Shown piece after piece: positions 2,886 through 23,589 of a DNA stretch of 64,000 bases. Position 1 is the first letter of the stretch. Every line of letters begins with the position of its first letter. The position numbers were made by a program, and so were the translations under genes. This DNA comes from Symbiodinium sp. CCMP2592 (Eukaryota > Sar > Dinophyceae > Suessiales > Symbiodiniaceae): NCBI GenBank assembly GCA_905221615.1, contig CAJNDT010006135.1, positions 1,293,501-1,357,500 of the forward strand, in the 5' to 3' direction. A model generated the notes under the pieces. It was not told the DNA's origin. It did no database searches and saw nothing but the letters and a program-made list of their open reading frames with translations.

Positions 2886-2887
2886 GG

Positions 2888-4658: not shown

Positions 4659-4766
4659 ACTTACTAGGTCCCCCGACCCTCCATTATAGAACCCTTACAG
4701 GTCCCTTTACGGATGCCTTTTCGGAGCCCTTTAAGGAACTCACTTACCAAGTCGCCCGAGCCTCCA
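4659..4766. repeat. K filler between 25-bp direct duplications
   Basis: ACTTACTAGGTCCCCCGACC (4659-4678, continuing to 4683) recurs with four changes at 4742-4766. The 58 bp between them is K-type (TATAGAACCCTTACAGGTCC ... GAGCCCTTTAAGGAAC). Confidence 0.55.
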
Positions 4767-4956
4767 AGTATAAACAAGATATGAACCCCTGAACCCCAAA
4801 CCCTGCCTGTAGCCGAACAGACCTTCCTTTCTAGGGTCTTATAGACGGGCCCTTTAAAGGAATCCCAAAAGCCGTGCTCTAATTATTTAAGCCCCTATAC
4901 TACCCTACAAAACTACGAGGTTTAAGTTCTCTGAACCTCTGGATTATCCCTAAACC

Positions 4957-5533
4957 CTAAACCCTAGACCCTAAATCCTAGACCCTAGACCCTAAACCCT
5001 GTTGCAGAGTACGTCACGCCGGCCTCCACTGCCCGTGGGTCCGCAACCTTCGGCTCCTCTTGCGGAGCATCGGGAGCCTCGCGGCAGTCCAGATTTAGGG
5101 TTTTAGGGTCATGGGTTTAGGATTTTAGCCATTTCGTCTTTAAGGCATGGTAAGGTATAGGACTGAATGCAGAGCTAGCTTGAATTAGAAACAGTGTCGA
5201 CATCATAGTCCCTAGATGAATTTGTCTGCAATGTACTTCAATACCCTACTATAATTCTGAAGGTCCCCTGTATAGTACCGGAACTCCCTTCAACACAGGC
5301 GACGATATCTCAAACGCTGAACCAAGCACAGGCCCTTATTTTGAGGAGCCTCAAGATTATCCTTGATTCCTGACCCCGTGAGCTCCGTTTGTCTCATGCT
5401 GGCCCTGCCGCGTTACCCCAGGCCCTAAACTCCAAATCCTAACCCCAACCATAAACCCTGGACCTTAACCCTAAATCCTAACCCTAAACCCTATTACCCT
5501 AAACCTCAACCCCAAACACTAAACCCTAAATCG
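4957..5533. repeat. Degenerate CCCTAAA telomere-like tracts
   Basis: Two runs of CCCTAAACCCTA-type heptamers with substitutions (about 4957-5000 and 5424-5533), separated by unique sequence. No gene is visible between them. Confidence 0.6.
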
Positions 5534-5779
5534 TGTTTGCTTGGTGCATTCTTGTAGGAAATCCAGGGGGGGGGCAAAACTCCTAAACGGCTCATTTCGT
5601 CTTTAATGCATGGTAAGGTACAGGGTTTAGGGTTCTTAGACCATATAGGGATTCATAGTCTTTAAGGGTATAGGGCCACTACTTTGAAGGCCCGTTGCTT
5701 GCTTGTATATCCCAGCGCATATTCCACAGGCAATGTGAGCATCCTGGAGGCCTCAGGAATGAAAACTCTATACCGCCAA

Positions 5780-5897
5780 GAGGGTCCATATACTACCATT
5801 AGGTTTTAGGGTTTAGGGTGTTAGGGTCCTTAAAGCCATCATGAGGATGATCTTTGGGGACCTAATTCCGCAACGGTAGTACATATATGGACCCTCT
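5780..5897. repeat. Fold-back element (C-like ends)
   Basis: GAGGGTCCATATACTACC and the inverted GGTAGTACATATATGGACCC bound a 118-bp hairpin whose loop holds GTTTTAGGGTTTAGGG. Confidence 0.6.
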
Positions 5898-7194
5898 GTG
5901 ATTGACCTGCCGGTTTGTTCTTTGTTTGAGGATCCTAACCATAAAATAGGCTCTCCGAAGAGGGCATTGCATTCTAGGTATTGGCAGAACCCAGAAAGTG
6001 CAACAACCGCACATTAAGGACTGTCTGTAAGCCCGAAAGACTTACGCACCTGCTCCCTTCCTTAAACAAAGGCATCGGCTGGGACTTGTTGACAATTACA
6101 GCATCATACTTACGGGGGCTCATCAAAGGAGCCCTAGGAATGAACGCAATATCATTTCTAGACCTGAAGGGGGTCATAAGGGAAGCTAAACCCTAAAAAA
6201 AGGGAATAAGGGCCTACTCTGGGTCCTGGATTTGCACTCTTTAATCAAGGGGCTTTGGAGTCTCTGGGAGGGCTTAGAGCACGTCCTGAACTACTATATA
6301 CATGGACCTTTTTATAGTTAGAATTAGAATAGGCTTTTGGGGTACTCTATACTATGAACTGTGATAAGGAACCCCCAAAATAGTATAGGTAATTAGAAGT
6401 AAGGCCCCTATGCTACCATAACGCAGTGCTTGTGGGATCCCTGCTTGGCCCTAAACCCTCGATCCAAAGCTCTCAACCAGTAAAACCCTAAGCCCAAAAT
6501 CATCCGAGGATTTTCTCCAAGAATCTGGTATATACTATTTGGGTACATGGACCCTTTAACCCTAAACCCTATAGAACCCTTATAGGAATCCTTAAAGGAA
6601 CCCCTCAAAAAGATACCCGTTTGCGTGCAAGACCGATCGGATCTGCCTCTTGGGCAGCAGCACGGGCCAGTTTGGATGTGATTGTGCCGTTTGAACCTGC
6701 CGCAAGTGGTACCGTAGCAGTGGTGGTAGTGGTAGTAGTGGGTAGAGTAGTGGTAGAGTAGTGGTGGCCATGCTTCAGCGCTTTGGTCTTTAGGTTTAGG
6801 ATTTAGGGGTCTAGGGTTTAGGGTTTGGGGTTTCGGGTTTAGGTGTTTGAGGTTATAGTTGGGATTATCGGTGCCCGAAGTAGGGTCCTCCTAAGCATAA
6901 CCTTACTGATAAACTTACGTACAGACTAAGTCCCATGAGCCTCTAAAGCAGGATTTATAGGCTTTAGGCCTTAGGACTTTGGCTTTAGCTTTTAAACCTG
7001 AGTTGTCCTTTAAGCCCGTTCAAAATTATGTACTATTTTGGTTCTCAAGAAAATAGTATGGGAAATTAGCAAAGATCCCAAAGGACAACCCAGAAACGGT
7101 TTTCGGCTCGAGAGACCTGTTCAGGAGTCTACTGCTTGATCGAGTGTGATGGCTCTCTGGGTAAGGCCTCCAAATGGGTTTAGGGTTTACCCAG
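5898..7194. other. Gene-free stretch
   Basis: Half sites of family C (6527-6560), a short GTGGTA-rich tract (about 6718-6765) and TTTAGGG variants (6788-6855). No protein-like frame was found. Confidence 0.5.
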
Positions 7195-7293
7195 AGGGTC
7201 CAAGTACCCAAATAGTAGGGTTTTAGGTCCTAAAATCCATACTTTGAATGGTTTTTGGACCTTGAAACCCTCCTATTCGGGTACTTGGACTCT
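7195..7293. repeat. Fold-back element related to family M
   Basis: GAGGGTCCAAGTACCCAAAT pairs with the inverted TATTCGGGTACTTGGACTCT. Confidence 0.6.
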
Positions 7294-7426
7294 TACGGTT
7301 AGGGTTTACGAGCTATGTGCGCATTTCCGGAAATTACGGGTACCGTTCTGGGGTCCTCACAAGAATAAGGATCCTACTATTTAGGGTATTATTTGAGGTC
7401 CCCTAAACCCTAAACCCTTATGCCTA

Positions 7427-7527
7427 AACCTTCCAAAATCCCTTAATTCAGGAATATACCTCAAATCATAATAGGATCCCTAATATGATTTAAGGTATAT
7501 TCCTTACTTAAGGGATTTTGGAAGTTC
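7427..7527. repeat. Family B fold-back element
   Basis: CCTTCCAAAATCCCTTAATT and the inverted TTAAGGGATTTTGGAAG arms enclose complementary GGAATATACCT / AGGTATATTCC and a GGATCC centre. Confidence 0.75.
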
Positions 7528-7913
7528 TGGTGGGTGCCCTATTTTCGGAAACTTCCATTTGGGCTCCAAGAGCCTCCAACGAAGGATCGCTGCAGAGCGG
7601 CTGCGAACAGCAGGGCGATGAGGAGGAATGACCTTGCATCGATAAAGCAACCCTTAAAGGATACCCTTAAGGAGCCCGTGAAGAATCTCTTACGGATATA
7701 ATTCTACCACGATCTTGCGTTCAGGACTTCAGTGCTTTAGGACTCAACTTGTGCTTGGGCTAGAAGCTCTCTTCAGGCTTTGAGGTTAGCTTTAACGCCA
7801 AAGAATACACCTTTTTTAAGGGCTCAATGTAGGAACTTGATTAAGAAACCCTGGGCCTAGAACCCCAAAACAGCAGGATTCATAGAAGGAACCTGAATAA
7901 AGGCTCTTAGTCA

Positions 7914-8017
7914 GGTTCCTACATTAAACCCCCCAAAACCCTTAATGATAATACCCTTATAGTACCCTTTAAAGGAACCCATATAGAACCCTAAGAAAGG
8001 CCCAAAGTTCCTACATT
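7914..8017. repeat. K-like filler between short duplications in a fold-back element
   Basis: GTTCCTACATT occurs at 7915-7925 and 8007-8017 with K-type sequence between them. An inverted copy (AATGTAGGAAC, near 7828) shows this is the arm of a hairpin. Confidence 0.4.
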
Positions 8018-8093
8018 CTACGAAAAAATAATGGTTAGGAGCCCAATGAGGTAGGTTTTGTGGGATCCAAGTAAGGCTCCCTTAGGGCCTACG

Positions 8094-8146
8094 GGGTTTA
8101 GGGTTTAGGGTTTAGGGTTTAAGGTTTAGGGTTTAGGGTTTAGGGT
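8094..8146 (+). repeat. Interstitial TTTAGGG array
   Basis: Seven near-perfect TTTAGGG units (one TTTAAGG variant), abutting a family C hairpin. Confidence 0.85.
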
Positions 8147-8241
8147 CCATGTAACCACATCGTGTATACTTTGGCCTTAAGGTAATCCCTATATAGGTAC
8201 TTCGGGGCCAATGTATATACTATCTGGGTGCATGGACCCTT
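8143..8241. repeat. Family C fold-back element
   Basis: AGGGTCCATGTAACCAC pairs with inverted GTGCATGGACCCTT; the central CCCTATATAGGTAC is shared with other C copies. Confidence 0.7.
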
Positions 8242-8309
8242 AAAGGCTTGTTTGAAGCCGATTAAAAACTTTCTTCAATTCAACTCCTTTCGAACTTTGA
8301 GTACAAGCC

Positions 8310-8388
8310 AAAAAAGTTGAAACATCACTATCCTCATGCCCTTAAGGTTCAAGTATAGGGGATCCCAGCACTAATCCTCCTGAACCCA
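8310..8388. repeat. Left part of a family F fold-back element
   Basis: CAAGCCAAAAAAGTTGAAAC and the internal GGGATCCCAGCACTAATCC match F4 at 43350. The element is interrupted by the N hairpin and resumes at 8522. Confidence 0.55.
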
Positions 8389-8521
8389 TCATAGGGATCC
8401 TTAGGGGTGTAGGGGGGAGGGGTGTAGGGGACTATATTTCCTTAAATAGGCATTATTAGTCCTTATTATGGGCCTTAAGGCCCCCTACCCCCTCCCCCTA
8501 CACCCCTAAGGATCCCTATGA
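8389..8521. repeat. Family N fold-back element inserted in family F
   Basis: TCATAGGGATCCTTAGGGGT pairs with inverted CCCCTAAGGATCCCTATGA, and the G-rich tract pairs with a C-rich tract. It is flanked by a perfect 17-bp direct repeat ACTAATCCTCCTGAACC at 8370-8386 and 8522-8538; the same site is uninterrupted in F4. Confidence 0.75.
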
Positions 8522-8621
8522 ACTAATCCTCCTGAACCATGTTCCCACGTCCTAGGATTCGCTGCATGTCGGCTGCGGGTCTTGTCTACGCCTGCTTGCA
8601 GCCTTTCTGTAGGGCTGGTTT

Positions 8622-8816
8622 CGGTTGATGATACGAATCCTGGGGTTCCTTTAAAGGGCTCTATAGGGGGTACCTTTAAGGGGTTCCTTTAATGGATCTA
8701 TAGGGGGTTCAGGGTTTAGGGTTGATGATATAACTCCTGCATGACCCATAATAAGGATTATACAAGAATTCCCATAGTTTAGGGTCCTTAAGGTAATGCA
8801 GGATTTATATCATCAG
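8622..8816. repeat. Family A fold-back element with a K insertion in its left arm
   Basis: The end CGGTTGATGATACGAATCCT (8622-8641) is repeated as GGTTGATGATATAACTCCTG (8720-8739), separated by 76 bp of K sequence. The rest (8719-8816) is a complete A hairpin ending TTTATATCATCAG. Confidence 0.7.
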
Positions 8817-8925
8817 GCAAGCCTAGACAGGAATCCTAAGTACCCCCTAGGGGAGTGTTGCAAAGTATGTCAAGCTACGAAACCCCCATAATACCCTTTG
8901 TAGTAATCCTTACCCAGAGGCTCCA

Positions 8926-9022
8926 TATACAGTACCATTATGGAATTAGGCCCCAAAAGACCCTCCTTATCAGTGTTTTAGGGGCCTACTTCCAGAATGG
9001 TACTGTATCTGGAGCCTCTAGG
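8926..9022. repeat. Fold-back element (C-like, variant ends)
   Basis: AGAGGCTCCATATACAGTAC pairs with inverted GTACTGTATCTGGAGCCTCT. Confidence 0.65.
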
Positions 9023-9292
9023 TTGGTTTGGGCTTTCAGGCTTTGGCGTATCGGGTCCTAGATTTTTGGAGCTCTGGGCGCCGATCCCTACACTCCACAA
9101 AACCCTATGAGCCCTTCAAGAAGGGAGAGCTCGCGGAATAAGTCTATGGAATTGGGAAAATCTCAAAACGATTTAAGAATCCCTCCAACAAAAACAAAGA
9201 AACAAGTCGATCCAAGATGCAGCAGCCCGGATCGGGCAAGACTTCGCGCACGCAGCGCCATGGTGACAGCAGGGAGCACTGGAGTCCGAATA

Positions 9293-9399
9293 TGGGTGGT
9301 TGTCAAACTTAGGGTCCCTTTTTGGGTCCTTATTACAATACGGCACTTAATATTTAGGGTAATTGCCCAAAAAGGAACCATAATTGTGACAACTACCCA
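9293..9399. repeat. Family D fold-back element
   Basis: TGGGTGGTTGTCAAACTTAG and inverted TTGTGACAACTACCCA. Flanked on both sides by TA (or ATAT), consistent with a 2-bp TA target duplication. Confidence 0.75.
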
Positions 9400-9813
9400 T
9401 ATGGGAAAGTATGCATATCCAGTCTCGTCGTGCAAAGTTTGGCTCAGGAAGCTGATTACTTGTTTCAACCGTGAACGTCTAACCTGGTACGGCCTTGACA
9501 TTGCATAGACATGTCAAGTTGCACATTGTAACTGCCGATGCGGTAGCAAGCATAGAAGTAGCATGTCTTTGAAGCTAACCACAGCAACACCAGCAGCAAC
9601 AGCAACAACACCGACAATGCAACACTGACGATAATGACAGTATTGTGAATCCTAACACGACAGCAGTAGTGGTAGTAGTGTGCAGTTTGTAATAGCTCTA
9701 CTAGGGGGAGCAGCAGCAACAAACCCGAACCCCGAGAATGCCAACTCTCATCCCAAGAGTCGGACACAAGAGTCCGACGCCTCGACCTGAATACCACACA
9801 GGCTTTAGAGTTC
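9400..9813. other. Gene-free stretch with CAG/CAA-rich runs
   Basis: Short AGCAACAGCAACA tracts (about 9585-9610, 9708-9722). No convincing coding frame; the 110-133-codon frames here run through the D hairpin. Confidence 0.5.
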
Positions 9814-9917
9814 CTAAGGCTCTATGTACCCATGTAGTACATACTTAGGCCTGAAAGTACCTATATAGGGACCCCTTTAAGGCCTAAGTAGCTGCTATAA
9901 AGGTACATGGAGCCTTT
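9814..9917. repeat. Family C fold-back element
   Basis: AAGGCTCTATGTACCCATG pairs with inverted AAAGGTACATGGAGCCTT around ATATAGGGACCCC. Confidence 0.75.
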
Positions 9918-9959
9918 GGGAGCTAAGGGTTTCGGATAGACGACACCTGCGACCCCTCA

Positions 9960-10068
9960 CCCAGACCTTTCAAAATACCTTCATTAAGGAATATACCTTA
10001 AATCATATTAAGGATCCTACAATAATTTAAGGTATATTCCTTACTTCAGGGATTTTGGAAGGTCTGGG
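9960..10068. repeat. Family B fold-back element
   Basis: CCAGACCTTTCAAAATACCT and inverted AGGGATTTTGGAAGGTCTGG; the arms contain GGAATATACCTTAAATCAT and its complement. Confidence 0.8.
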
Positions 10069-10776
10069 CATAAGGGTTTAGGGTTTAGGGGACCTAAAAT
10101 AATACCCGAGAAAGTAGGATCCTTATTATTATAAGGACCCCAGAACGATACCCCTAATTTCCGGGAACGCACAAATAGCATCCTAAACCCTAAACCCTGA
10201 ATACCCCTTTAAAGGAACCCTAGGTATACTCCTTAATTAAGGGATCATCCTAAAGCGAGACCAGCACCAACCCCCTCAAGCGAGACATGAAGACAGTCTG
10301 AACCCTGAAACAACCAGACCCTGAACCGGGTCCTGAACTAGCCAGTGGTTTTGGGGGGTTCCTTGGCTCTTTAGCTCCTTATTTAATAGGGATTATCATC
10401 ATCCCTGGCTCCTTAGCTCCTCCAATATCAATAGTAAGTTAAACCCTGACTCCGAAACCCGACCCGAGACCAGGCCCAGACATAGCAGATTGGTAACTAC
10501 TCTGAGCTTGATTAGTCTCGATAAGGCTCAGGTTCTAGGACAGTTTCGGGGCTTGATATCGACTGAGGGCGTTGAGGGCTTCTCTTATCTGTTCAAGCCC
10601 TTATAGCGGGGTCAACATCCGCTTGCGAGATCCTAAACGAACCCGACCAAGGGCCATGTTGATCTAGCAGGTCTACTTCACAACTACCCCCTGCAAACTC
10701 CGAACGTATTCCCAAAAGCACATCTCACCATCCTTACTTTCTGAGCCACAAGAACCTGCAAGTAAACACCCTTCTT

Positions 10777-10888
10777 GGAGGGGCAGGGGAATTAGTGAGT
10801 AGGTTATAAGTAGGGTTATAATTGGGGTAACTCCATTTAGGGTAATTATTCTACTCATCACCCACTTACAAAGTCCCCTGCCCCTCCA
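10777..10888. repeat. Fold-back element (family I-like loop)
   Basis: GGAGGGGCAGGGGAATTAGT pairs with inverted AAGTCCCCTGCCCCTCC. Confidence 0.6.
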
Positions 10889-10983
10889 ACATAGACCCTA
10901 AACCCTAAACCTCATAGATCCCTTTAAGGAACCCTATAGATCCCTTTAAGGGGCCCTTTAAGAAGCCCTTACTAAGTCCCCTG
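10866..10983. repeat. K filler between 15-bp direct duplications
   Basis: TTACAAAGTCCCCTG (10866-10880) recurs as TTACTAAGTCCCCTG (10969-10983). Between them are CCCTAAACCCTAAACC and repeated ATAGATCCCTTTAAGG. Confidence 0.55.
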
Positions 10984-11059
10984 AATCCTGAAGCCTGGGC
11001 CCTTAGAGTCTTCACCGTTGTGCTCTAGAGCCCCTCAACATGGGAGATTCCGAAAACTA

Positions 11060-11160
11060 CGGTTGATGATATAAATCTTGCATTACCTTAAGGACTCTAA
11101 ACTATGGGAATTATGGTATATTCCTTATTATGGGTCATGCAGGATTTATATCATCAACCG
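11060..11160. repeat. Family A fold-back element with TA target duplication
   Basis: Ends CGGTTGATGATATAAATC and GATTTATATCATCAACCG (the right arm has GGATTTATATC) are inverted complements. TA stands immediately before 11060 and after 11160. Confidence 0.85.
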
Positions 11161-11238
11161 TAGGGGGTGCCTTGGCGCTCCTTTAAAGGGAAATACAAGG
11201 TACTATAAGGGTTCTATAAAGGTTTAGGGTTTAGGGTC

Positions 11239-11342
11239 GAGAGTTTCCGAAAATTACGGGTTCCGTCTTTTGGGGTCCATATATAGTAAGGATCCTACTA
11301 TTTAGGGTGCTATATTCGGGTCCCTCTTTTCGGAAACTCCCA
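11239..11342. repeat. Family E fold-back element
   Basis: GAGAGTTTCCGAAAATTACG and inverted CTTTTCGGAAACTCCC, with central AAGGATCCTACTATTTAGGG. Confidence 0.75.
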
Positions 11343-12797
11343 CATCTTGAAAAACCAAAATACCAGTAAAAGAAAGGCCCTGCACCTTCATAGTATGAGT
11401 TCATATATGGTATATGGACCTTAAACATTTTTTGAGGTGCATTTCGTCTTTAGGGACCTAAGGCTAGAAACCCCTTATCTTTGATAGGACCCCTTAAGTC
11501 CAAAGTCCGAAAGAGGCGCATAAACTATATTTCAAGCAGGGTTCTGAATGAAATCAATACGGGGAATTAAGACTTCTCCCAAATCGGCACCTAGTCAGTG
11601 TGGGGATAAAGATGATCACAGGGGTGCCTTAAACAAGAGGTTCCGTATGCATTACTAATTACGATGGAACTAGGGTAACAAAAACCATGACAGCGATGGT
11701 CTCTTGGGGCCTCATATTCCAATGATTCCACAATGGTCGTATATATGGACCGCGTGGGCAAAATACGCCGTTGCAACACGCCTCTTTGAACGCCTCGTCT
11801 TGGTCGGCATAGGCAACTCCAAGGAGGAGCTGTTCACAGCTCATGCTAAACGCTCACATGAATCCCGAAAAAAGTTTCCGGATTCCAATTCCTTGAACAG
11901 CTTGCGGGTGCCATAGGGTTTTGCATCTAGGGTTTACGGCTCACATCTCATTTGAGGTTTATAGTAGGTGATGTAGCGCCCCATACTTGCTACGGGTGAT
12001 TTTTCCAAAGGTACTAGAAGTAGGGTTTCTGCAGTACTAGGAATTGCTAGTATATTTTAGGCAGGGATCCGACATACAGGTACTTAGGGCCGTTTGGGTG
12101 CTTCATCAGCAAACCCATAGGTGAAGTCAAAGGAACTGGCAGAATCCTCTTCGTTTAAAGTTCAAGGTACACCCGACCCCGAAAAACAAACTTGCGGTTG
12201 TCGGGCGGTTCCTTATTATGCCTTCCTTGTATAGGCCTTTAACTGGCAAGTTTTGCATGGGGGCGGGGTCAGGTAAGATTGAGGTTCCAAACTCGGGGTT
12301 CGGGGTGGTATGCAGTTTGGACTCAGGGTTTAGGGGTTCGCGGCTTGCGGGCCAAAACCCCAAACCGCCCTCACTCACCTTGGAGCGCTAAGGAGAGTTC
12401 GAGTTCCACCAGAAGCTCGCAAACGAGGCGGCAGTGTCCCGACCTAACCGATGGGGCCAAAAGGATTTTCGGTTTACGGTTGAAAGGGTTTGGTCTTAGG
12501 ATATAATGGTTTGGGAGTTTGGGATCACGGATTAAAGATAGGGCTTGGGGATTCAAGTTTACGAATTCGGATGTATGGTTTACAGTTTACGTTTGGAAGG
12601 GTTTACACTCACGGGTTCTTTTGAGTTTACAAGCACTGCAACCTACCAGTACCAAAACCCGAGTGGTGTCCACAGTCACCGCGAGTGCCATCCCCACTTG
12701 GACCCACATAGTGGTGACCGGACTGACCTGACCGGTCGACCGGACTGCTGACTTGACCGATTGAATGGACTGACCTGTGACGGGTGAGTGGATTCCC
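11343..12797. other. Gene-free, mixed unique sequence
   Basis: Contains no recognisable hairpin pair and no protein-like frame. Frames up to 86 codons overlap one another on both strands without any motif. Confidence 0.4.
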
Positions 12798-12900
12798 AAA
12801 GGCTCCATGTACCCATATAGTAGGTACTTAAGCCTTAATGTACCCATAAAGGGACCCCTTTAAGGCCAAAGTACCTACTATAGGGGTACATGGAGCCTTA
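12798..12900. repeat. Family C fold-back element
   Basis: AAGGCTCCATGTACCCATAT pairs with inverted ATAGGGGTACATGGAGCCTT. Confidence 0.8.
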
Positions 12901-13035
12901 GGGATTGACAGGACCGGGCCATCGGACTGACGCGACCGGACAGACCGGGACCTGGCCCAGGGGACCATCGTAGGGCCCCCAAAAAAGCACACAAGCAAAA
13001 ATTACGATAGTGATATCCCATGTAAAGCCCCTTTT

Positions 13036-13087
13036 ACCCTAAACCCTAAACCCTAAACCCTAACCCCTAAACCCTAAACCCTAAACC
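13036..13087 (-). repeat. Interstitial CCCTAAA array
   Basis: Seven CCCTAAA-type units with one CCCTAACC change. Confidence 0.85.
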
Positions 13088-13183
13088 GGTAGGGATATCC
13101 CTATAAAATGCTTATGCTTATGTGCTGTATCGGACCCACCGGATGTTCGCGGCTGTTTCGCATGTTCCCAGAACATAAGACAT

Positions 13184-13469
13184 AAGGGTCCATGTACTCA
13201 TATAGGGTGCCTTTGAGGGTCTACTATAAGGGTTCTATAGGGGTTTAGGATGGTTTGGGGTTTAAGGGTCCATGTACTCATATAGTATATACATTGGCCT
13301 TAAAATACTGCCTACATAGGTACATAGGGCCCAAAGTATATGCTATATGGATACATGGAGCCTTAAACCCTATAAACCCTATAGAACCCTTATAGTAAAC
13401 CCTTATAGGAACCTTTAAAGGAGCCTCTAAAGGATCCCCCTTTGGGCTATATGGGCACATGGACCCTTA
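13184..13469. repeat. Composite palindrome: family C hairpin with K segments mirrored in both arms
   Basis: Order: C end (13184-13205), K (13206-13263), C left arm starting with the same 22 bp (13264-13285), loop, C right arm (ending 13344-13365), complementary K (13366-13447), C end again (13448-13469). The K segments of the two sides are inverted complements over CTATAAGGGTTCTATAGGG, so the whole 286 bp folds on itself. Confidence 0.75.
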
Positions 13470-13552
13470 TAAGGTAAGACATAAGGAGGAGTTCGCCTTG
13501 ATGAGGGACTTGTGTTTCCGGTACACATCCCTGATAAGAAAGAGCCTCAACT

Positions 13553-13606
13553 AGGGTTTAGGGTTTAGGGTTTAGGTTTTAGGGTTTGGGGTTTAGGGTT
13601 TAGGGT
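13553..13606 (+). repeat. Interstitial TTTAGGG array
   Basis: TTTAGGG units with TTTTAGGG and TTTGGGG variants. Confidence 0.8.
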
Positions 13607-14100
13607 GGCTGAACACCCAAGGCCATTCTCGAACTAAACGGAGAGCCTTGCAATTCGGTCTTCAGCGATGAGCTTGGGGCTGGGGTTCAAGGCTTTGCAT
13701 GTCGGGTTTGGGTCTTACAGAAAGCCCTTAAACGTTATATGATGAAATAGGGCATCTAAGAATCTAAGGTCTTTCTCAAGTTTTTGTATGAAAGATTTTG
13801 AGAGACATGAGGTAACGGAGTTTTAATTACTCTGCTTCAAGAGGTGCGAAGTGTTTCCAAAGGTTCAGCTGAGTTCCCACGACTTGGAAAATGGGAGCTT
13901 CTGAAGATTCTTGGTACCTCATTTTGGGGTCCTTATAAAAAGGATCCTACCATTTACAGGACTATATAAGGGTCCCCCTATTTTACCATGTAATACCCTA
14001 AAGCGTTCCCTTAAAGCTACCTTTAAGGGTTCCTATAACGGCCCTTTAAACGGAAGCCCTAGCCAAATATCTGTCCTCACCGGACCCTGGGGATCAACAT
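13607..14100. other. Gene-free stretch with an E-like remnant
   Basis: An E-like remnant at about 13890-13985 (GGGAGCTTCTGAAGAT ... GGTCCCCCTATTTT) followed by K-type TTTAAGG motifs. No gene. Confidence 0.45.
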
Positions 14101-14175
14101 AGCCCAAAAGCCTCATATAGTATGGTCTTTGGGCCCAAAAGCCTTTATTAACATATGAGTCCTTAGATCCCTAAA
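14101..14175. repeat. Family J dispersed repeat
   Basis: AGCCCAAAAGCCTCATATAG and GAGTCCTTAGATCCCTAAA match segments at 22660-22720 and 23571-23640. Confidence 0.55.
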
Positions 14176-14334
14176 CTCTATAGATCCCTTTAAAGGACCC
14201 CTTATAGATCCCTTCAGAGGGTCAGCAAAAATCTGTCCTCACCGGAGGGCTTTGCCGCAGCTTCGAGCACGGGAGCCACGGCCAAGGCATCGTTTGGAAG
14301 CCTCGAAGCTCCGAGATCTCGCAGCACCTCCAGG

Positions 14335-14440
14335 GCTCCCTTTAAAGGGATCCCTAAGGGCTCCTTTAAAAGGGATCCCTAAGGGCTCCTTTAAAGGGAG
14401 CCCTGAAGGGCTCCTTTTAAAGGAATTGCTAAGGGTTCCT
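14335..14440. repeat. Tandem K-type repeat
   Basis: Four copies of about 26 bp built on GGGCTCCTTTAAAGGGATCC. Confidence 0.7.
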
Positions 14441-15138
14441 TACAGAGGTTTAGGGTTTATTTTTGGTGTGCCTTTTAGGGTTTTCGTGTTCCTTTAAGAG
14501 CAGGGTTCCTCTTTGAGTTTAAGGGTACCCTGAGGTTGTAGCAGCACCTCCAGGACCCGTACACCTGTTTAAGGGTTGGGCCCCAAGTACCCTTTAATCA
14601 AGCCCTTATGGTCCTTCATAGACGGCATTTGGTGTATAACAAAGGGTAGTTGGGGGGTCTGGGCTGAGAGGGTAGTCTGAGGTTGTTAGGGTTCCTTTTC
14701 GGGGTACCTTTAAAGGTTTAAGGTTCTTTTAAGAATACCTGCAAGGGAGAGAGTGAGGAGCTTGGAGGTTAGGGGTTTGGGTTTAGGTGGGGAGGCTTGG
14801 TAGGGCTTCATACTTGAAGGGTCGGGGGACTTAGTAAGTAGTTCAGGGTATGCAGTAGGGCTCAGGGCTAGTATGGTATAAGGGTTAAGGGCCCAAAAAG
14901 CCTAGTGCTCAAACCTTATGCCCCTTTTGGGGTTTGTCGATCCTTCCGGGGGTACATGGGACTCAGTAGCCCAGAGCGAGAAAATCCCGGAAACCCTAAA
15001 CCCCTATTCTGACTCTCACTAAATCCTGAACTCCTAACTATAGCCTATCCCGTATAAACACCAAACACCTATACCCTAAACCACCCTTAGGCCTAAGCCC
15101 CTACTATAATCAAACTAGACCCCTGTAAACCCGAACTA
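14441..15138. other. Gene-free stretch
   Basis: GGTTTAGGG variants and unique sequence; no frame with protein character. Confidence 0.4.
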
Positions 15139-15231
15139 CGGTTGATGATATAAACCCTGCATGACCCATAATAAGGAATATATGGGAATTATTCCTTATT
15201 ATGGGTCATGCAGGATTTGTATCATCAACAG
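15139..15231. repeat. Family A fold-back element
   Basis: Starts CGGTTGATGATATAAACCCT after a TA; the right arm ends GTATCATCAACAG. The TA is not preserved on the right. Confidence 0.75.
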
Positions 15232-16539
15232 CCCTAAACCCTAAACCGTGTATCCCCTGAACCCGTTTGGAATCAGTTGAAAGGCCCCACACCTGCAGTG
15301 CAGGCTCCCACTCGCTGGCGCGGCTGCAGGCAGCAGCTGCAGCGTTGTACCTCACGGTCACATGCTTTACAAAGGGGGGGGACTTGGGCTAATCTTGCCT
15401 GGTGCCTGAACCTCCTTTTCAAGGACTTATACAAAGAAAACATAATTGATGAGGAACCTAAAAAGGTTGGTTTTTGGGGTCCAGGTAGATCCTGAACCCC
15501 TAAACCCTGAAACACTAAACCCGGCTTCAAACGCTGCTTTAGTTGTGCCGAAGCTTGGGTGCTAGATCCCGGCAAGCCCTCCTACATAGTTCTAACCAAA
15601 CCCCAGGATCAAAGAGCCTACTGTTTCCAGGGTTATACCCAATAGTGAAGGGGGCATGAGCTACAAGTTATAATCGCTAGTCCAACCCACTTTGTGTACT
15701 CCCAAAATTTACAGCCCGAATGTAGCAGCTTTCATTACTGACACAGCGTTTTGGGATGTATAACTTGTCACAGGCCCATCTAGGGAAATCCTGGCACTCC
15801 ATAAAAACACAACTATGACATATTTCAAACCAATTAATTCAATAGGGTTCTGAATATGGTTGACGGTATGTTCTTTGTTGAGGGGTTTTGGAGTCTCTGG
15901 GAACCCCTACATATAGACATCACCAGCAGCCATGTTGCAGTGAGGAGTCTAGGACCACTCTGGCGCAGTAAGCGCTTGCGAGGAGCCACAGCACCACGGT
16001 CCATTGAGCCACCTCACACTCTTTAGAATCTAGGGATTAGTAGAATTTCAATGCATTTTTGTTTTGTGTGGAGGCGGTTCCCTGTAATTAAGGGCTCCTG
16101 CAAGGGATCTATAAAATTGTTCCTCTGAGGGCTCCTTTAAGGGATCTACATAAGGGTTCCTTTGAGGGGATCTATATAAGGACCCCTTCCATGGTTGCAT
16201 GACGTGTTCCACAAGGGCACCAGAGGGGTTTAGGGTTTAGTGGGGTGCGGGCGTGTAGATTTCGGGGTGGCGTTTGGGTCCCAGGGCTTTATAGGCCGTA
16301 GGGCTTCGGGTTTTCCCTAAGGGTCCTAACAAATTGGGGAACCTCAAAATTGAGGGTTTTTGAGACCCCAAAGAGACCCAAGGACTCTCCCTAGGAGATT
16401 CCGACCCTCCTAGGGAGATACCTGGACCCTTAGGGTCGGGTTTAGGGCGAGTGGAAGTCCGGTTTCGCAAAACGAATGACGACGCCACGGCAGACCAACC
16501 CGCAAACTGTCGAAGCCAAGTCTCCTGCAAACGTTTCAG
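15232..16539. other. Gene-free stretch
   Basis: Contains TTAAGGGATCTACATAAGGG K motifs (16090-16180). No hairpin pair and no credible gene. Confidence 0.4.
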
Positions 16540-16570
16540 CCCAGACCTTCCAAAATCCCTTAATTAATGA

Positions 16571-16601
<31 letters not shown>

Positions 16602-16670
16602 AAATTATAGTAGGATCCCTAATATGATTTAAGGTATATTCCTTAATTAAAGGATTTTGGAAGGTCTGGG
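16540..16670. repeat. Family B fold-back element with an (AT)n expansion in one arm
   Basis: CCCAGACCTTCCAAAATCCC pairs with inverted GGATTTTGGAAGGTCTGGG. In the left arm the GGAATATACC segment has become an (AT)n run of about 35 bp (16561-16597); the right arm keeps GGTATATTCC. Confidence 0.85.
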
Positions 16671-18485
16671 TTTAAGGGTTCCCTCATGGTTCGTTTCAAG
16701 GTAACTAGAGAAGGAAGACTCGATCTCGGGTTACAAGCACAAGTGGGCTGCCTCCCAGTAGGCCAACTGCCAACGATTTATGTAGGGGTTTGGGTTTCAG
16801 GGTTTGGGGTTGAGGGTTTAGGGCTTAGGAAAATAGCAAGGTTACTGCTGTGCGGTTACGACGGTTGTGGACTATACAGATCCACTAGGGAACAGAAAGT
16901 CCAACCTAAACGTTCACACCATATTGGCCATCACGCTGCATTTCCACAAACAAGGACCTACCCCTAAACCCTGAACCCAAAATTTAAAAAAACAAACGAA
17001 GCAAGTCCAGTCCAAACATTGCGACGCAAAACCCCAAGACGTAAGAAGCAACCGTAAACCATATACACCTAAACACCCGAGACCCTACACCCTACCCAGA
17101 CCATCTTTGTAAGGACATACGTAAGGAAATCCACTAAAGGGCCCTGAAACGATAGGTTCTTTCCCGAAGGCTCCAAGTACCTAAAAATCATACATTCACC
17201 AAAGTCCTAACCTACATAACTACTACCCTGAAACCAATTACCTAATTATTGGGTCCTTTGGACCCTCAGCGTGTAGGATAGTGGTTTAGGATCTGAGCAA
17301 GACCTACGGTGAAACAAGACAGCTTCGCGCCTTCTCGGAAGTACTGATGACGGCAAGGTAGGTGATGGAGTCCTGGGCTGTGCAGCCATGGACTCAACCC
17401 AGACCCCCGAGAGGATCCAAAAAGTAGATCCCTTAATGGGGGCTCCTATAGAGTACCCTTAGTAGTATAGGGCCCCAAATTGGGTCTGGGAATGCGCGTC
17501 GAGGCAGTGAGGGTTTTGTGGCGTAGGGGCTTGACGAGCATCTTTACAGTTCGACTTCGTAATCAAGTACTGTTTAGGGTTTAGGGGTTTAGGGTTTGGG
17601 GTTAGGGTTCAGGGTGTAGCTTCGTAGGATTTTGGGGTTCTTTATTACAAGTAGAGTATAAACCGCCGAGTAGCTGGTTCCATCCGCATGCAAGTCGCTT
17701 CATGCAGTAACTGGAGAGCAAGCCGCCACTGCGACCCGTTCCTTTGCATGGAGGAGACTGCGAGGACGGGGGTCGCAAAACAGAGGGTTTAGGTTTGGGT
17801 TTCTGAAACACCAACAGTAGCTTCATTTTGGGTCAAGGTATTGTCGAACCCTACAGACCATCAGACTACTCGAAGGAACCCTCTGGAAGAGTATACACAT
17901 TAGAAACCCTGCGCTTCTCAAAAGCCCCTTAAGAAGAAGGGGTCCCCATTTCCTGTTGTTCGACCTTTAAAACTGACTTAAGAAACAATCTGTGTAAGGC
18001 TACTACCGGTACTACTAGAGGACATGGGCTTGTGCGTGTAAGACCGAAATCCAACCAAACCGAAATCCTGAACCCACAAGCCAGGACTTTCATGGAGGCC
18101 TTATGGCCGTTAATAGCGGGTATTTGGGGTATAGTAGAGGGTAGTTGGGGGGTCTAGGAGTTGGCAAAACGGCCTAGAGACGAGATTCTCGCATGCCGAA
18201 ATGGCCGCGTTGTAGGAAACGATGTCCTCCGGCTTCGCGGCGTTGAGCGTTTTGGGCTTCAGTGTCGTTTGTAGTTTCGGATTTCTATACTGATTTTAGA
18301 CCCCTAGCTAAATTTATAGTTTGAGCTGTTTCTTGAAGATTATTGGAACCAAAACACAAAAAAACAAACACATATTTCGAGATTTAGGGCTTCATGGTAT
18401 GGTATTCAGACTTAGGGTTTTCCGGAGGTTTAAAGTATCTGCAGGTTTGGGTTCAAGGACTTGCCTGAAGATGTTGGTTTATAAT
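16671..18485. other. Gene-free stretch with a family M copy
   Basis: A family M copy lies at about 17157-17275 (GGCTCCAAGTACCTAAAAAT ... TTATTGGGTCCTTTGGACCC). The rest has telomere-like motifs and unique sequence without a protein-like frame. Confidence 0.45.
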
Positions 18486-18594
18486 AGACTCCATAAAGTT
18501 GGAAACCAGATCAAGGCCAAATGGTGCTGGGATTCCCTATACATTGCTCTTAGGGATTGAGGCTACGGGGTTTCCAACTTTTGGGCTTCTACTG
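18486..18594. repeat. Family F fold-back element (degenerate)
   Basis: TAGACTCCATAAAGTTGGAA against inverted TTCCAACTTTTGGGCTTCTA. Confidence 0.55.
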
Positions 18595-18851
18595 TAGGTT
18601 CAAAGGCTTAAACCCAAAATCGCAAATCCAACCATAGACACCTACTCTCTACTTGGATAAGAACTTAGGACGCTTTGGGGTTGTAGTTCGCGCGACTGCC
18701 TGAAAGGCGAGCCTCGTACATACTTCCTCCCCACAAACAGGCGAGATAAACATCAAGCACAACAATCAAGTATAAGCCTAAACCCAAGCCCAAAGCTAGA
18801 ACAGGATGTTGGGGTATGTTATGGCACAGCTTTCAAAAGTGTCGTTACCTT

Positions 18852-18962
18852 AAGGCTCCCTTCGGGTCATGGGCTTTCTGGGGGATGGCTTGGGCTTTAG
18901 GGGGTCAGGTTTTTTGATCTTACTACGAGGGTCCATGAGCCTTCGGGTATGTATCACTACTG
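18852..18962. repeat. Family G element
   Basis: AAGGCTCCCTTCGGGTCATG ... ACGAGGGTCCATGAGCCTTC; matches other G copies. Confidence 0.65.
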
Positions 18963-19112
18963 GTTCAGGCTTCTAGACAAAACGCCCTAAACCCTGGAAG
19001 CATTCTTAGCTTCTATCTCTTCTCCCTGTATTTGGCCCTAAACCGTAAGCCCTAAACCGTGGCAAACCCTAAACCCTAAACATGACTCCCTAAACCCTGA
19101 ACCCTTAAAGGG

Positions 19113-19212
19113 AACTCCAGAAAGTTGGAATATGGATCAATGGGAGGATCCCCTATAATTTACCTTAAAGGGGTTACGATAATGATATTCCAACTTTCTG
19201 GCTTCTACTATA
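19113..19212. repeat. Family F fold-back element
   Basis: CTCCAGAAAGTTGGAATAT pairs with inverted ATATTCCAACTTTCTGG. Confidence 0.75.
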
Positions 19213-19538
19213 AGGTGTTCGTTAAGGCATGGCATTTACTAGCTTAGCGGCCTGAGTACCCTAGCGACAAAAAAGTTAACCTTTTCAATTATGGTCGGGT
19301 TATATCATGAACCCCAAAAGTTGTAGGCTACCTACTCAGCTACTGAGTGAAACCTTATATATTAAATCGCACTCCTGGTAAGCCCTGAACCCCTAAACCC
19401 TAAACCCTAAATCCCTAAACCCTCATTAAGGCTGTAAACTTATAACGTTATAGCATTTGTTGAGCCGCACTCCTGCCGCATCTCCGTCATGCGAAATGCT
19501 TGAAGGAGATTGGGGGCCCTCTGCCACGCCTGCTTTTT

Positions 19539-19780
19539 TCAAAGGGGAAAAGGAGGGCTCTTAATTTAGGGCTCTTAGGGTTCCTTTAAAGGGATCTATA
19601 AGGGTTTCTTTCAAGGGATCCTTAGGGGTTTAGGGTTTAGGGTTCCTTTAATCAAAGGGGAGAAGGAGGGACCCTTAATGGGGACCCCTACCCTGTAATG
19701 GGCTATATAACGGGTATATAATAGCTATATTAAGGGTATATACCTAGGGGTGCTTATTCAGGGTCCCTCCTTTTACCCTT
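19539..19780. repeat. Family H fold-back element with K/telomere filler
   Basis: The arm TCAAAGGGGAAAAGGAGGG (19539-) is repeated as TCAAAGGGGAGAAGGAGGG at 19652, with 86 bp of K plus TTTAGGG between. The hairpin then runs to the inverted GGGTCCCTCCTTTTACCC ending near 19780. Confidence 0.7.
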
Positions 19781-20517
19781 GGATGTTTTGGTCGCCCGGA
19801 TGGGGAAACCCCTACACTTCTAAACCTCCCTATAGTCTCCATTGTAGTTTCTTTTATTGGTTAACCAGTTTTATGGTTAGGATCCTAGGCTAACCAGAAA
19901 AAGGAACTACAATGGAGACTTTCGGTCGGCCTTACGGTGTGGGGCTCACGGTTTCTTTCGCGTTGAATGTTCGGGGCTGACTCGGTACCCTCTAGAGTCA
20001 TCAAGCTGTGTTCGACTGACATGCCACTCCCTGAGCGTTACATTCGAAACCCTTAAGCCTATAAGCCTTGAGGCCATATCCGTGGATTAAGCTCTAAATC
20101 CTTAAGGCTATATTTAAGCCTAAACCCTCAAGCGAGAACCCTAAACCACCCTGCCACAGCTCACCTTTGCGTTGTAGCTACTATATAGAGCTTTAGCAAG
20201 GTGCCTTTTTGGTTGGAACATGTTTGGAGAGAAGATTCAACCCAGAGTCACGGATCATTTGGAGGTAGGTGGACTTAGTAGGTAGCTATTTCATAGGGTA
20301 GAAAGTGCCAGCCGAATATGGTACTAATAACTCGACTTATTACCTTCTTACTATGTCCGCCGGCCTCCAAGCAGGCTTCAGAACGACAAACGTTGTCTTC
20401 CAAGCGCCAGTATGCTTTCTCATGTCGTCCTTCCTGCCGACCTGGAATGCTCGTAGCTCCGCCGCGTGGCGCCTTGCATGGACGAGTGCGCAGGTTTTCC
20501 AGGGTCCAAGCACCCAG
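19781..20517. other. Gene-free stretch with a small hairpin
   Basis: TCTCCATTGTAGTTTCTTTT (19836-) and inverted AAAGGAACTACAATGGAGA (to about 19919) form a fold-back of about 85 bp. The remainder has no protein-like frame. Confidence 0.5.
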
Positions 20518-20724
20518 AGGCTCCATGTACCTTTATAGTAGCTACTTCGGCCTTAAAGGGGTCCCTATATAGGTACTTTCAGGCCTAAGTATATACTATA
20601 TGGGTGGTTGTCAAAATTATGGTCCCTTTTGGGATACCTTAAATAGTAGGTGCCGGATTATAAGAAGGACCCAAAAGGGGACCATAATTTTGACAACCAC
20701 CCATATGGGCACATGGAGCCTTAG
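20518..20724. repeat. Family C fold-back element interrupted by a family D element
   Basis: AGGCTCCATGTACCTTTAT and inverted GGGCACATGGAGCCT are C ends. The right arm is split by a complete D hairpin at 20601-20703. Confidence 0.8.
20601..20703. repeat. Family D fold-back element nested in family C
   Basis: TGGGTGGTTGTCAAAATTAT and inverted ATAATTTTGACAACCACCCA. Flanks read TA on both sides (ATATGGG on both sides if a longer duplication is assumed). Confidence 0.85.
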
Positions 20725-20847
20725 GGGCAGCAAGGCCAGAGTCTGAAGGAGCTGCATGTGGACTTCGGAATTCAACAGTTTGCACATGCCTGCGGATGCA
20801 AGCCACGGAGCCGCGGACGACAGTTATGCCAATGATCCCTAAGGAAT

Positions 20848-20952
20848 TGGGAGTTTCCGAAAATAGGGGACCCTAAAACATAGTACCCTTAATTGTAGGT
20901 TCCTTGTAATAAGGACCCCAACATGAAGTACCCCTATTTTTCGGAAACTCCC
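20848..20952. repeat. Family E fold-back element
   Basis: TGGGAGTTTCCGAAAATAGG and inverted CCTATTTTTCGGAAACTCCCA (read to 20 of 21 bases), flanked by AAT on both sides. Confidence 0.8.
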
Positions 20953-21173
20953 AATTTGTCAGAGGCGGGCAGATGCGCTTCTTCAAGCTCTCGAACCACG
21001 TCGTCCTGGATGACATGGTCGTGCATCAAGGCATGTACGCCCCTGCACGATGCTCTCGGCCGTTTCTGCACAGTCGTGTTCGTTACTAGGGACCAGGCAG
21101 AATGAGATCTTCTGCTGGACACTCCGTAACTCAATGAGACGTTTTGCAAGGATGTTAGTTATAACAAGGGCTA

Positions 21174-21355
21174 CTTGGAGGTTCATGGGTAGTTCTAAGT
21201 GGACTTACAAGTAGGGTAACTATACTTATGACGGGACTTATAACCCCACTTATAACTACCCATGAACCCTAAACCCTATACCCCTATAGAATCCCTATAG
21301 ATCCCTTTAAAGGGACCCTTAAAGGACCCTACTTATAACTACCCATGAACCTCCA
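21174..21355. repeat. Family I fold-back element with a K insertion
   Basis: ACTTGGAGGTTCATGGGTAG pairs with inverted CTACCCATGAACCTCCAAGT. The 21-bp right arm end (21248-21268) is repeated exactly at 21331-21351 with 62 bp of K and CCCTAAACC between. Confidence 0.8.
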
Positions 21356-21550
21356 AGTACAAGGATTTAGGGCCGAGGGCCTGGGAGTTGAGAGCTTAGG
21401 AGTTGAGCGATTACCCCAAGGGTTTAGGGTTTAGGGTTTAGGGTTAATCCTAACCTACGTAACTACTATCCTAAAACCGAGTACCTGATTTTTGGGTCCT
21501 TTGGACCCTTGGGGTTAGGGTTGTTTTTGAGAAGACCGTGGCCCTGCGAA

Positions 21551-21651
21551 GGGTTGATGATATAAATTCTGCATTATCCATAATAAGGAATATACCATAA
21601 TTCCCATAGTTTAGGGCCCTTAAGGTAATGCAGGATTTATATCATCAACCG
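21551..21651. repeat. Family A fold-back element
   Basis: GGGTTGATGATATAAATTCT and inverted GGATTTATATCATCAACC; GAAGG occurs at both borders. Confidence 0.8.
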
Positions 21652-22126
21652 AAGGATCCTAATACACCCAACACCCTAAACCGGGACTTCTGAGACGTCA
21701 CGGGCTCTCCTTAAGAGATTCCGGGCCCTACGGAGGAGCACTCAATGACCAAGCAGTAGGACAGAAACCCAAGGCAACCCCAAAAACCCTAAACCCCAGT
21801 TAAGGCTGAGGCTCGAAAGTAGGGAGCCCCTCAACCATTACATGCCGGGGCTTCTGATATAGTCGAAGCTTAAGCCCCAAACCCAAAAGCAAACAAAAAA
21901 GGAAGACCTAAACCTGGGTGCCCGTGACCCATCAGCCGCGCAAGACTCCCATGAAACCAACACGACAGCAAGAAATCCAGCAACGACCCAAAACCTAAGG
22001 GTTCAAATGACCCAATCACTAGGTACTCGGCTTTAGGATGGTAAGCTTCGTAGGCTAGCATTCTGGAGAGTATATGATTGTTAGGTAAGTCCCAACATCG
22101 GACAACCAGCCCTTCACCGTAAATCC
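21652..22126. other. Gene-free stretch
   Basis: Telomere-like motifs and unique sequence only. Confidence 0.4.
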
Positions 22127-22245
22127 AAGGGTAAAAGGAGGGACCCTCAATAAGGACCCTAGGTATATACCCTCAATATAGCTCCTATATACCCAGGTAT
22201 GGGTCCCCATTAACGGTCCCTCCTTTTCCCCTTTGAGTAAACCCT
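22127..22245. repeat. Family H fold-back element (uninterrupted)
   Basis: AAGGGTAAAAGGAGGGACC and inverted GGTCCCTCCTTTTCCCCTT enclose complementary GGGTATATA / TATATACCC tracts. Confidence 0.8.
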
Positions 22246-23429
22246 GACACAACCCAAAGAGCCCTAAGGCAAAACCGCGCCGTCGCAGAGTCGCAAGCGC
22301 TGATGGCGGCATTGAAGGACACCGAACCTAAGAGGGTTTAGAGTTTAGGATTTAAAGTCATCCTTACCAGAAGCTGCTTGTTACCTGATGAAACATGGGC
22401 ACATGGTTCCTGGCAGTAGCCCTTAATTAGGGGTCTATCAGTGCCCAAGATCCATTCTAATTCCTCCAGCTGCCAATTTCATCATGACTGCTCTTTTGAG
22501 CAAACACAAGGGTCTCTTCTCTTGCATGTTAAACTCTCATGCTGGGCCTTGTATTTGCCTGTCAAGTTCCCCAGGCTGCATATGCACTTCCATTGCGGCG
22601 TACACGGAAACACGTAACTACTTGTTTCGGATATCCCTATATAAATCCCTACAGACCCGAAAGCCTTACATAGTATGTTCTTGAGGCCCAAAAGCCGTAA
22701 TAAATGAGTCCTTATAGATCCCCAGGGAATGACGCCATAACCAAAAACGGAAACACCAAAACACACCCTGCAGCTTCAGCCGGAGAACTGAGCCGGACGT
22801 GCTGATCTTCGGCTTCGCGAATCAGCTCCTGCACTTGGTGTCGGTTTCAACAGCCTAGGGGTTTGGGATTTTAGGTGAAATGAGGGCTCTATACATGGTA
22901 ACAAAAAAGGAAAGGATCAACTTCTCCCAAATCGATATGTAGTGCAGCATACCCGGTCGGCTGCCAAGAGAAGTGTTCCTCAGGAGCCCAAACCTAAAGA
23001 CTGTCTAGACCCTAACCCCTGATCCCTAAAAGCCGTAACCACTGCCTAGACCTACGAGTAACCTAGGAATGAAACTGCAGCCTAAAAAGGGAAATAAGAG
23101 CCTACTCTAGGTCCTAGCGGCACATACTTTTGTTCGGAAGCTTTGACCAATATTGCTAGTAATTTTTGAGGCCACAACAATTCAGGTTCAGGGCCCTTTA
23201 CTTCGGTAACAGCGCCCTGGCCTAAGCACCTGCGTTCTAGAAAGAAGCTGTCTTTTGTAGGAATTCTTGTGGCTTTTTGGGCAAGTATCTCTTCTATGGC
23301 AACATAAAACCCTTCGGAAGTACAAGCCAAACCGAGTGGCCAATGCCCACAGCCATTCGCGCCGCTTCTGGCAGGCGCTGATGGCTGCGTTGAAAGAGAT
23401 CCTCAGGTGGGGAGTCCTTCTCCCTAGAA
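22246..23429. other. Gene-free stretch with a J remnant
   Basis: A J-like segment lies at about 22650-22720 and a GC-rich ATGGCGGCATTG motif at 22302-22313. No credible gene; frames of 60-94 codons carry no motif. Confidence 0.45.
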
Positions 23430-23589
23430 ATCAAAATAGCCCAAAAGCCTTACATATATACGGTTGATGATATAAATCCTGTATTACCTTAAGGAACTTA
23501 AACTATGGGGATTCTGGTATGTTCCTTATTATGGATAATGCAGGATTTGTATCATCAACCGGATCAAAATAGCCCAAAAGCCTTACATA
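23430..23589. repeat. Family A hairpin inserted in family J, flanked by a 27-bp perfect direct repeat
   Basis: The 27 bp starting ATCAAAATAGCCCAAAAGCC occur at 23430-23456 and 23563-23589. Between them is a full A hairpin (23461-23562) with perfect outer ends CGGTTGATGATA / TATCATCAACCG (TGTATCATC on the right). Confidence 0.85.

Follow-up and report, generated by a model that had tools for sequence, protein, structure and literature searches.

In the dinoflagellate Symbiodinium sp. CCMP2592, short hairpin elements that resemble miniature inverted-repeat transposable elements (MITEs) are found with a second copy of their own end lying outside them, usually beyond a telomere-like spacer that we call K. 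The structures were noticed in a 64,000-nucleotide stretch of contig CAJNDT010006135.1 (positions 1,293,501 to 1,357,500; ‘the window’ in what follows), where a preliminary description had taken them for host repeats interrupted by short inserts, each with a long duplication of the host on its two sides. The long direct repeats in the window are real, but the proposal of an element that duplicated 15-27 bp of target wherever it inserted does not, for the most part, hold. Our best reading of the sequences is that many of the K-flanked structures are composite MITEs, built in the order end, K, TTTAGGG, whole element, that have spread as units. For both layers of the account taken jointly, that the composite MITEs are inherited and that each line of them was founded by a tandem duplication at an element terminus, we estimate a probability of about 0.65.

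Such an origin would connect three things in a dinoflagellate at the level of sequence: hairpin transposons, the repair of breaks and the birth of satellites. It also carries a caution for annotators, in that long direct repeats around an insert are not necessarily target-site duplications; many of those described here are inherited parts of elements. How the end is copied, and why the spacer is telomere-like, make a testable puzzle.

Genome and samples

The sequence searched was the Symbiodinium sp. CCMP2592 genome (1.098 Gb in 5383 contigs). K is a working label for a short telomere-like filler segment, usually joined to TTTAGGG-type repeats, and the names of the hairpin families A, B, D, E, G, H, J, M, P, Q, T and V are working labels as well. 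Eighty K sites elsewhere in the genome were taken in list order, of which 79 were analysed, the central slice of L019 being without a core. Repeats in the flanks were scored with the K core oriented; the controls were right flanks swapped between loci and virtual sites 230 bp away. When up to one mismatch was allowed, the K word ATAGATCCCTTTAAAGG was found at 22,487 genomic places and the reversed word at 1. Inside contigs, perfect TTTAGGG arrays 70 bp or more in length are common, giving 7,219 overlapping matches genome-wide.

Direct repeats in and beyond the window

Re-reading of the window sequence recovered all nine direct-repeat pairs that the preliminary description had listed: 4659/4742 (25 bp, 4 mismatches), 7914/8006 (12 bp, 1 mismatch), 8370/8522 (17 bp, 0 mismatches), 8622/8719 (21 bp, 4 mismatches), 10866/10969 (15 bp, 1 mismatch), 13184/13264 (22 bp, 0 mismatches), 19539/19652 (27 bp, 6 mismatches in an ungapped alignment), 21248/21331 (21 bp, 0 mismatches) and 23430/23563 (27 bp, 0 mismatches). 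The inserts between them are 58-135 bp long. An additional pair, 14064/14226 (21 bp, one mismatch), encloses a hairpin together with K.

Duplications also surround K elsewhere in the genome. The flanking repeat scores at least 15 in 30 of the 79 K loci and at least 18 in 22, counts that take in a few K-like repeats (e.g. L010, L040, L042, L071, L080); swapped flanks gave means of 3.0 and 1.0 loci at these thresholds, and virtual sites gave 11/157 and 5/157. The repeats are thus as real as had been claimed, but the duplicated stretch is mostly the hairpin's own end and not a piece of host, the site of hairpin N at 8370 being an exception. Since the supposed host stretch is usually a hairpin end, the hairpin has been restarted from its end, not interrupted at random.

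Structure of the composites

Read along the direction of K, a composite begins with the first ~12-40 bp of a hairpin, passes into K at a variable start and then into TTTAGGG-type repeats, and continues with the same element from or near its terminus. The hairpins are MITE-like in length (~100 bp), in their inverted ends and, by hairpin scans, in their high copy number; the exact terminal 15-mer of H occurs at 10,042 places. TA stands on both sides of 11 of 19 complete H elements and 6 of 19 complete A elements, and AT-AT is found in 3 of 13 V. A script recognised an element end within ~140 bp of K at 61 of the 79 loci, some of its matches being weak, and a duplication of at least 12 at 30 of these 61.

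K runs one way relative to the hairpin in nearly all of the H rows. In the 91 rows examined, out of about 100 listed, K was forward in 81, absent from 9 and flagged as reverse in 1, row C868, where the flag came from a palindromic match and K in fact reads forward (82/91 one-way). Both ends are doubled, with K in mirror image, in the H element L109 and in the B element at 13184-13472, which suggests copying from arm to arm. In the other composites read, doubling is confined to one side, with the reservation that far ends were not scored in a systematic way, and the length of the K spacer varies among composites.

Doubling could have been favoured for its function. Tc1/mariner elements of the inverted repeat/direct repeat type have double binding sites, with two direct repeats in each inverted end, and the outer and inner end copies described here might form a predicted functional double binding site in which K is the spacer and the doubled end is selected. 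In favour of this explanation are the recurrence of doubling across several families, the repeated growth of the unit into arrays (below) and the two elements with mirror-image doubled ends. It sits badly with the one-sided doubling of the other composites and with a spacer of varying length, and we consider it quite unlikely.

Inheritance as a unit and tandem growth

K sequences partly follow element family. The nearest neighbour of a K belongs to the same family at a frequency of 0.64, against 0.23 after shuffling, and 0 of 2000 shuffles reach the observed value; this test used a single K from each of the 45 loci, out of 79, that have a recognised family to the right of K, and treated H and G, whose ends are related, as one family. 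It supersedes a version that admitted several K units per locus (130 units; 0.629 versus 0.201 shuffled). The K of A composites differs from that of E composites and from the K common to H, G and J.

Whole composites recur in unrelated surroundings. Nine of the 20 A composites extracted were compared. L048, L054 and L055 share both junctions and have inserts that are 0.99-1.00 alike, in flanks that are 0.33-0.50 alike; for L090, L092 and L096 the figures are 0.96-0.97 for inserts and 0.38-0.47 for flanks. As a control for the flanks, random 31-mers have a mean likeness of 0.42 (95% range 0.30-0.535). Another A-K composite, L091, was seen by eye between the two copies of a 17-bp direct repeat, CAGCAATTCYCAAACTA, that differ by one mismatch.

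The composite unit has also multiplied in tandem. A satellite at L089:~510-3130 (G000:C4940:2843409-2846029) is made of 32 units of 80 bp, each consisting of an A end, K and TTTAGGG repeats, with a variant unit returning every several units; it runs straight into a single complete A element. In H, arrays with a period of 81 are found at C136 and C916; E has arrays at C5113, C891 and C2691. L070 and L085 have at least three end copies alternating with K.

K as an inserted element

The preliminary description had offered two causes for the repeats, the first being a short element with a widely staggered integration. Where K does not lie near a recognised element end (18 loci), the script flags a duplication in six; five of these read as K-like or telomere-like self-similarity, leaving L079 (1/18) with a duplication that is not part of K. 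By the terms of that description, K segments elsewhere without flanking duplications speak for the failure of the insertion model, and with 1/18 the model therefore fails for K. Together with this figure, the partial link between K and family and the shared composites in unrelated flanks, junctions included, lead us to reject K as an element that duplicates its target wherever it lands. The one-way K of the H rows tells against an integrating K as well.

K might still be a short retroposon, resembling a short interspersed element with a TTTAGGG tail, that by target-primed reverse transcription makes a 12-35 bp duplication of its own at hairpin ends. A retroposon would be expected to be polar, as K is (its start varies and its opposite end carries a repeat tail), and to make duplications of variable length; short homologies are also seen by eye at both junctions. 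The observations of the preceding paragraph (the 1/18 loci, the one-way orientation, the partial tie of K subtype to family and the recurrence of one composite in unrelated flanks) all run counter to it, as does the existence of filler-free duplications of the same shape (below). We regard a retroposon origin as highly improbable.

Edges of the duplications and types of filler

Duplication is concentrated at the element terminus. The terminal H 15-mer is directly duplicated with a gap of 45-75 bp at 133 places (array rows included) among its 10,042 occurrences, or 1.32%; over the same gap range an internal H 15-mer is duplicated at 4 of 5,451 (0.07%), and K is present at 0 of these 4. The restart lies no more than 2 bp from the consensus terminus in 25 of 40 scorable K loci, on a score that by construction cannot exceed 8-11 bp.

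K is not the sole filler. A pattern that itself requires a restart near the terminus gave 32 rows of A duplications, of which 13 are single K composites, 13 belong to the C4940 array and 6 lack K. Of these six, the filler-free L103-L107 copy a first tract and restart near the terminus with start-to-start distances of 55-67 bp, and L108 has a distance of 80 bp. (L103 and L104 carry the same A duplication and the same flanks on two contigs, as a segmental duplication or through redundant assembly.) The 49 E duplications found include one with telomere-only filler at C1957, where there are four TTTAGGG units, and a filler-free type at C398 and C2390. In H, telomere-only filler is joined at GGGTT, a word common to arm and repeat, in L110 and L111, and a filler-free duplication was seen by eye only, in row C4963. 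K-filled duplications thus occur in A, H and E, telomere-only ones in H and E, and filler-free ones in A and E. Because the telomere-only and filler-free types exist, K is to be regarded as the usual filler in an event of wider kind, namely tandem duplication with one edge near an element end.

Telomere-only filler raises the question of telomerase, which could have healed breaks at element ends by interstitial telomere insertion; K would then belong to the added DNA, as a degenerate or subtelomeric portion of it. The fillers joined at GGGTT in the H arm and the four TTTAGGG units at C1957 would be expected from such healing; TTTAGGG is the telomeric repeat at one contig end; and, in the available text of PMC2246262, duplication is recorded at 6 of 130 rodent and 4 of 25 primate interstitial telomere insertions. 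Telomerase does not explain why K stands between the arm and TTTAGGG, and K does not adjoin the one telomere read at a contig end, where another tandem repeat does. We judge this explanation very unlikely.

That contig end (L120:1-370, G000:C100) has a CCCTAAA telomere followed by a ~40 bp tandem repeat of the TTTACTTAAACCCTCGCGGGAGCCAAACACCGCAA type, and no telomere was seen by eye at the eight 200-b ends of four long contigs. K as the repeat that adjoins telomeres was set aside on the different neighbour at C100, evidence that is weak as it comes from one telomere.

Founding of the composite lines

A composite line would be founded by a tandem duplication with one breakpoint at the terminus, or within ~10 bp of it, and the other farther inside. 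Our best guess is that a staggered break at the element end was followed by filler-assisted repair. On this likeliest route one nick would fall at the position of transposase cutting and the other inside the arm, both overhangs would be filled in, and the ends would then be joined with templated filler. The filler may have been copied, at short homologies seen by eye, from pre-existing K-(TTTAGGG)n or TTTAGGG repeats, or none may have been added; K-TTTAGGG repeats, the proposed template, are common in the genome. Composites themselves have spread as units to sites that are unrelated, and in places the unit of end and K has multiplied head to tail into a small satellite. A process of this kind is described in the available text of PMC8355091, in which 43-bp 3′ overhangs lead to small tandem duplications in mouse cells via CST and Pol alpha-primase.

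The second cause offered in the preliminary description, fill-in of staggered breaks with telomere-like filler, survives in part: it fits the founding events, as tandem duplications of element ends. It is not needed at every copy, because many copies look inherited.

The main rival to staggered-break repair is a stall and template switch at the base of the hairpin, and by sequence alone the two are indistinguishable. Replication slippage would bring a polymerase into the arm, where it would stall, copy K or telomere repeats elsewhere and re-enter at the hairpin base. This accounts for the re-entry at the base and for first tracts that end in the arm or near the loop, and the filler-free half-copies L103-L107, the junction homologies seen by eye and the mirror-image K on both arms of L109 and of the element at 13184 are all in its favour. 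By itself it does not account for K as the main filler or for the orientation of K, and we treat it as a possible but minority explanation.

Several points weigh against inherited composites founded by end duplication. No break, nick or transposase was observed, and a transposase search was not made. The place of K, between arm and TTTAGGG, is unlike a simple telomerase extension of the arm. By script, 31 of the 61 K loci beside an element end are without a duplication of at least 12, whether by decay or by another route, and among the other 30, L010, L037 and L054 are not clean end copies. J has its K in common with H and G, so the link between K and family is partial. Several junction types occur in J, G and H; some founding events were therefore separate and not rare. 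When left and right end copies were compared for likeness within and between loci, the two copies of one locus were closer to each other than to those of other loci in G (permutation p = 0.010) and not clearly so in H (0.08), E (0.13), A (1.0) and J (1.0); a few of the pairs are doubtful, and one locus entered the test on both strands. The result for G leans towards some fresh events at individual loci. Finally, that simple elements preceded composites, or the reverse, is not proven, and a composite that lost one repeat would become a simple element.

Breaks at MITE termini might, further, be sealed by a recurrent pathway of fill-in and one-direction copying of K-(TTTAGGG)n that leaves doubled ends still usable by a transposase. 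We think this rather unlikely; if true, repair itself would keep making new, mobile element types able to seed satellites.

True insertions with long duplications

Insertion between long duplications fails for K and stands for two hairpins of the window, N (8370, 17 bp) and A (23430, 27 bp). Hairpin N (8387-8521) lies in a Q-family arm between 17-bp copies. Comparison with the uninterrupted host repeat, which the preliminary description had recommended, turned up empty paralogous sites at window position 43418 and in L019, each with the same arm, one copy and no N. The A hairpin at 23430 lies between two 27-bp copies of an M end.

A survey of 172 hairpins found a flanking repeat scoring at least 15 in 5, against 0.1 in controls. 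Two of the five belong to a tandem array in L026, and a third (L023) has a repeat that overlaps the arm of its hairpin, so that window 23458 and L009:2520 remain; the survey missed N and L028:4689, probably through its low-complexity filter. On this survey, long duplications are rejected as the normal target duplication of the hairpins. True long-duplication insertions exist, and they seem rare. The hairpins at L028:4689-4879 (24-bp repeat, perfect) and L009:2505-2655 (20 bp, one mismatch) stand between direct repeats and are candidate insertions of this kind.

Comparison with known systems

The hairpins share with Stowaway and other Tc1/mariner MITEs a length of about 100 bp, inverted ends, many copies and, at some of the H and A elements (11 of 19 and 6 of 19), TA on both sides. 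They differ in having at one end a copy of that end and a telomere-like spacer, the spacer being common to families with different ends. In rice, Vaughn and Bennetzen (2014) reportedly attributed short insertions flanked by duplicated sequence to break repair, and are not said to have tied them to transposon ends or telomere-like filler.

As described in the available text of PMC2872659, coral CMITEs are also MITE families with different ends that share a conserved segment, and they too form tandem arrays, ascribed by the authors to replication slippage. The segment shared by the coral families is internal and their targets are TTAA; here the K/telomere spacer lies between two copies of one end. 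The small tandem duplications at 3′ overhangs (PMC8355091) are alike in that the overhang is duplicated by fill-in of both sides before joining; unlike ours, those in the available text arise from nickase-induced breaks in mouse cells, whereas here the edge is at a transposon end and a long specific filler is often present. Interstitial telomeric sequences at double-strand breaks (PMC2246262) likewise place telomere-type repeats at a former break, sometimes with a target duplication or other added sequence. Duplication is uncommon in the available account of them, whereas element ends in the present genome often show it and most of the filler includes K.

A literature search on MITEs with filler and gap repair found no paper that matched four of its five terms, and among the titles listed none dealt with doubled MITE ends filled by telomere repeats in dinoflagellates, although such a report may still exist. 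MITE families that share a segment and form arrays have the coral precedent; doubled ends around a telomere-like spacer across families are, as far as this search shows, new.

Features of the window

Table 1. Hairpin elements, K fillers, end copies and related features in the window
Position	Strand	Feature	Remark
4659..4683	-	Inner copy of G-family hairpin end (remaining element not recognised by eye)	G-family ends
4684..4741	-	Degenerate K filler, 58 bp	
4742..4770	-	Outer G-end copy (TACTTGGAGGC..)	
7826..7925	-	P-family hairpin (AATGTAGGAACCTGATTAAG ends)	
7926..8005	-	K filler beside P hairpin	
8006..8017	-	Outer 12-bp P-end copy	
8370..8386	.	17-bp duplication, copy 1, inside Q-family arm	Empty counterparts exist
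8387..8521	+	Hairpin N (arms TCATAGGGATCCTTAGGGGTGTAGGGGG), read as true insertion	
8522..8538	.	17-bp duplication, copy 2	
8622..8642	+	Outer A-element end copy	
8643..8718	+	K filler, ends in TTTAGGG-type repeat	
8719..8818	+	A element restarted at terminus (right end placed by eye)	
10775..10889	-	Complete G-type hairpin	Hairpin scan
10890..10968	-	Telomere-like repeat and K filler	
10969..10983	-	Outer 15-bp G-end copy	
13184..13205	+	Outer B-end copy, left	
13206..13263	+	K filler, left of B	
13264..13370	+	Complete B element	Hairpin scan
13371..13446	-	K filler, right of B, mirror image of left K	
13447..13472	-	Outer B-end copy, right	
14064..14246	.	M-type hairpin and K between 21-bp direct repeat (14064-14084 / 14226-14246)	
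19539..19565	+	Outer J-end copy	
19566..19651	+	K filler with TTTAGGG repeats	
19652..19784	+	J element restarted from end	Hairpin scan
21172..21268	-	H element; right-hand end copy short of last few bases	
21269..21330	-	K filler beside H	
21331..21359	-	Outer H-end copy with TA flank	
23430..23456	+	27-bp M-end duplication, copy 1	
23457..23562	+	A hairpin in the place where other sites hold K	
23563..23589	+	27-bp M-end duplication, copy 2, continuing into M-type hairpin	
43418..43434	+	Empty counterpart of N site: Q-family arm with single diverged 17-bp copy, without N	

Two further parts of the window were noted. Positions 35203-35552 hold a G/T-rich tandem repeat of period 71/144, and positions 1-500 are coding-like and by eye resemble the RNase H end of a Copia-type element. 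In the genome as a whole, a 21-base word of the dinoflagellate spliced leader occurs at 636 places against 0 for the reversed word.

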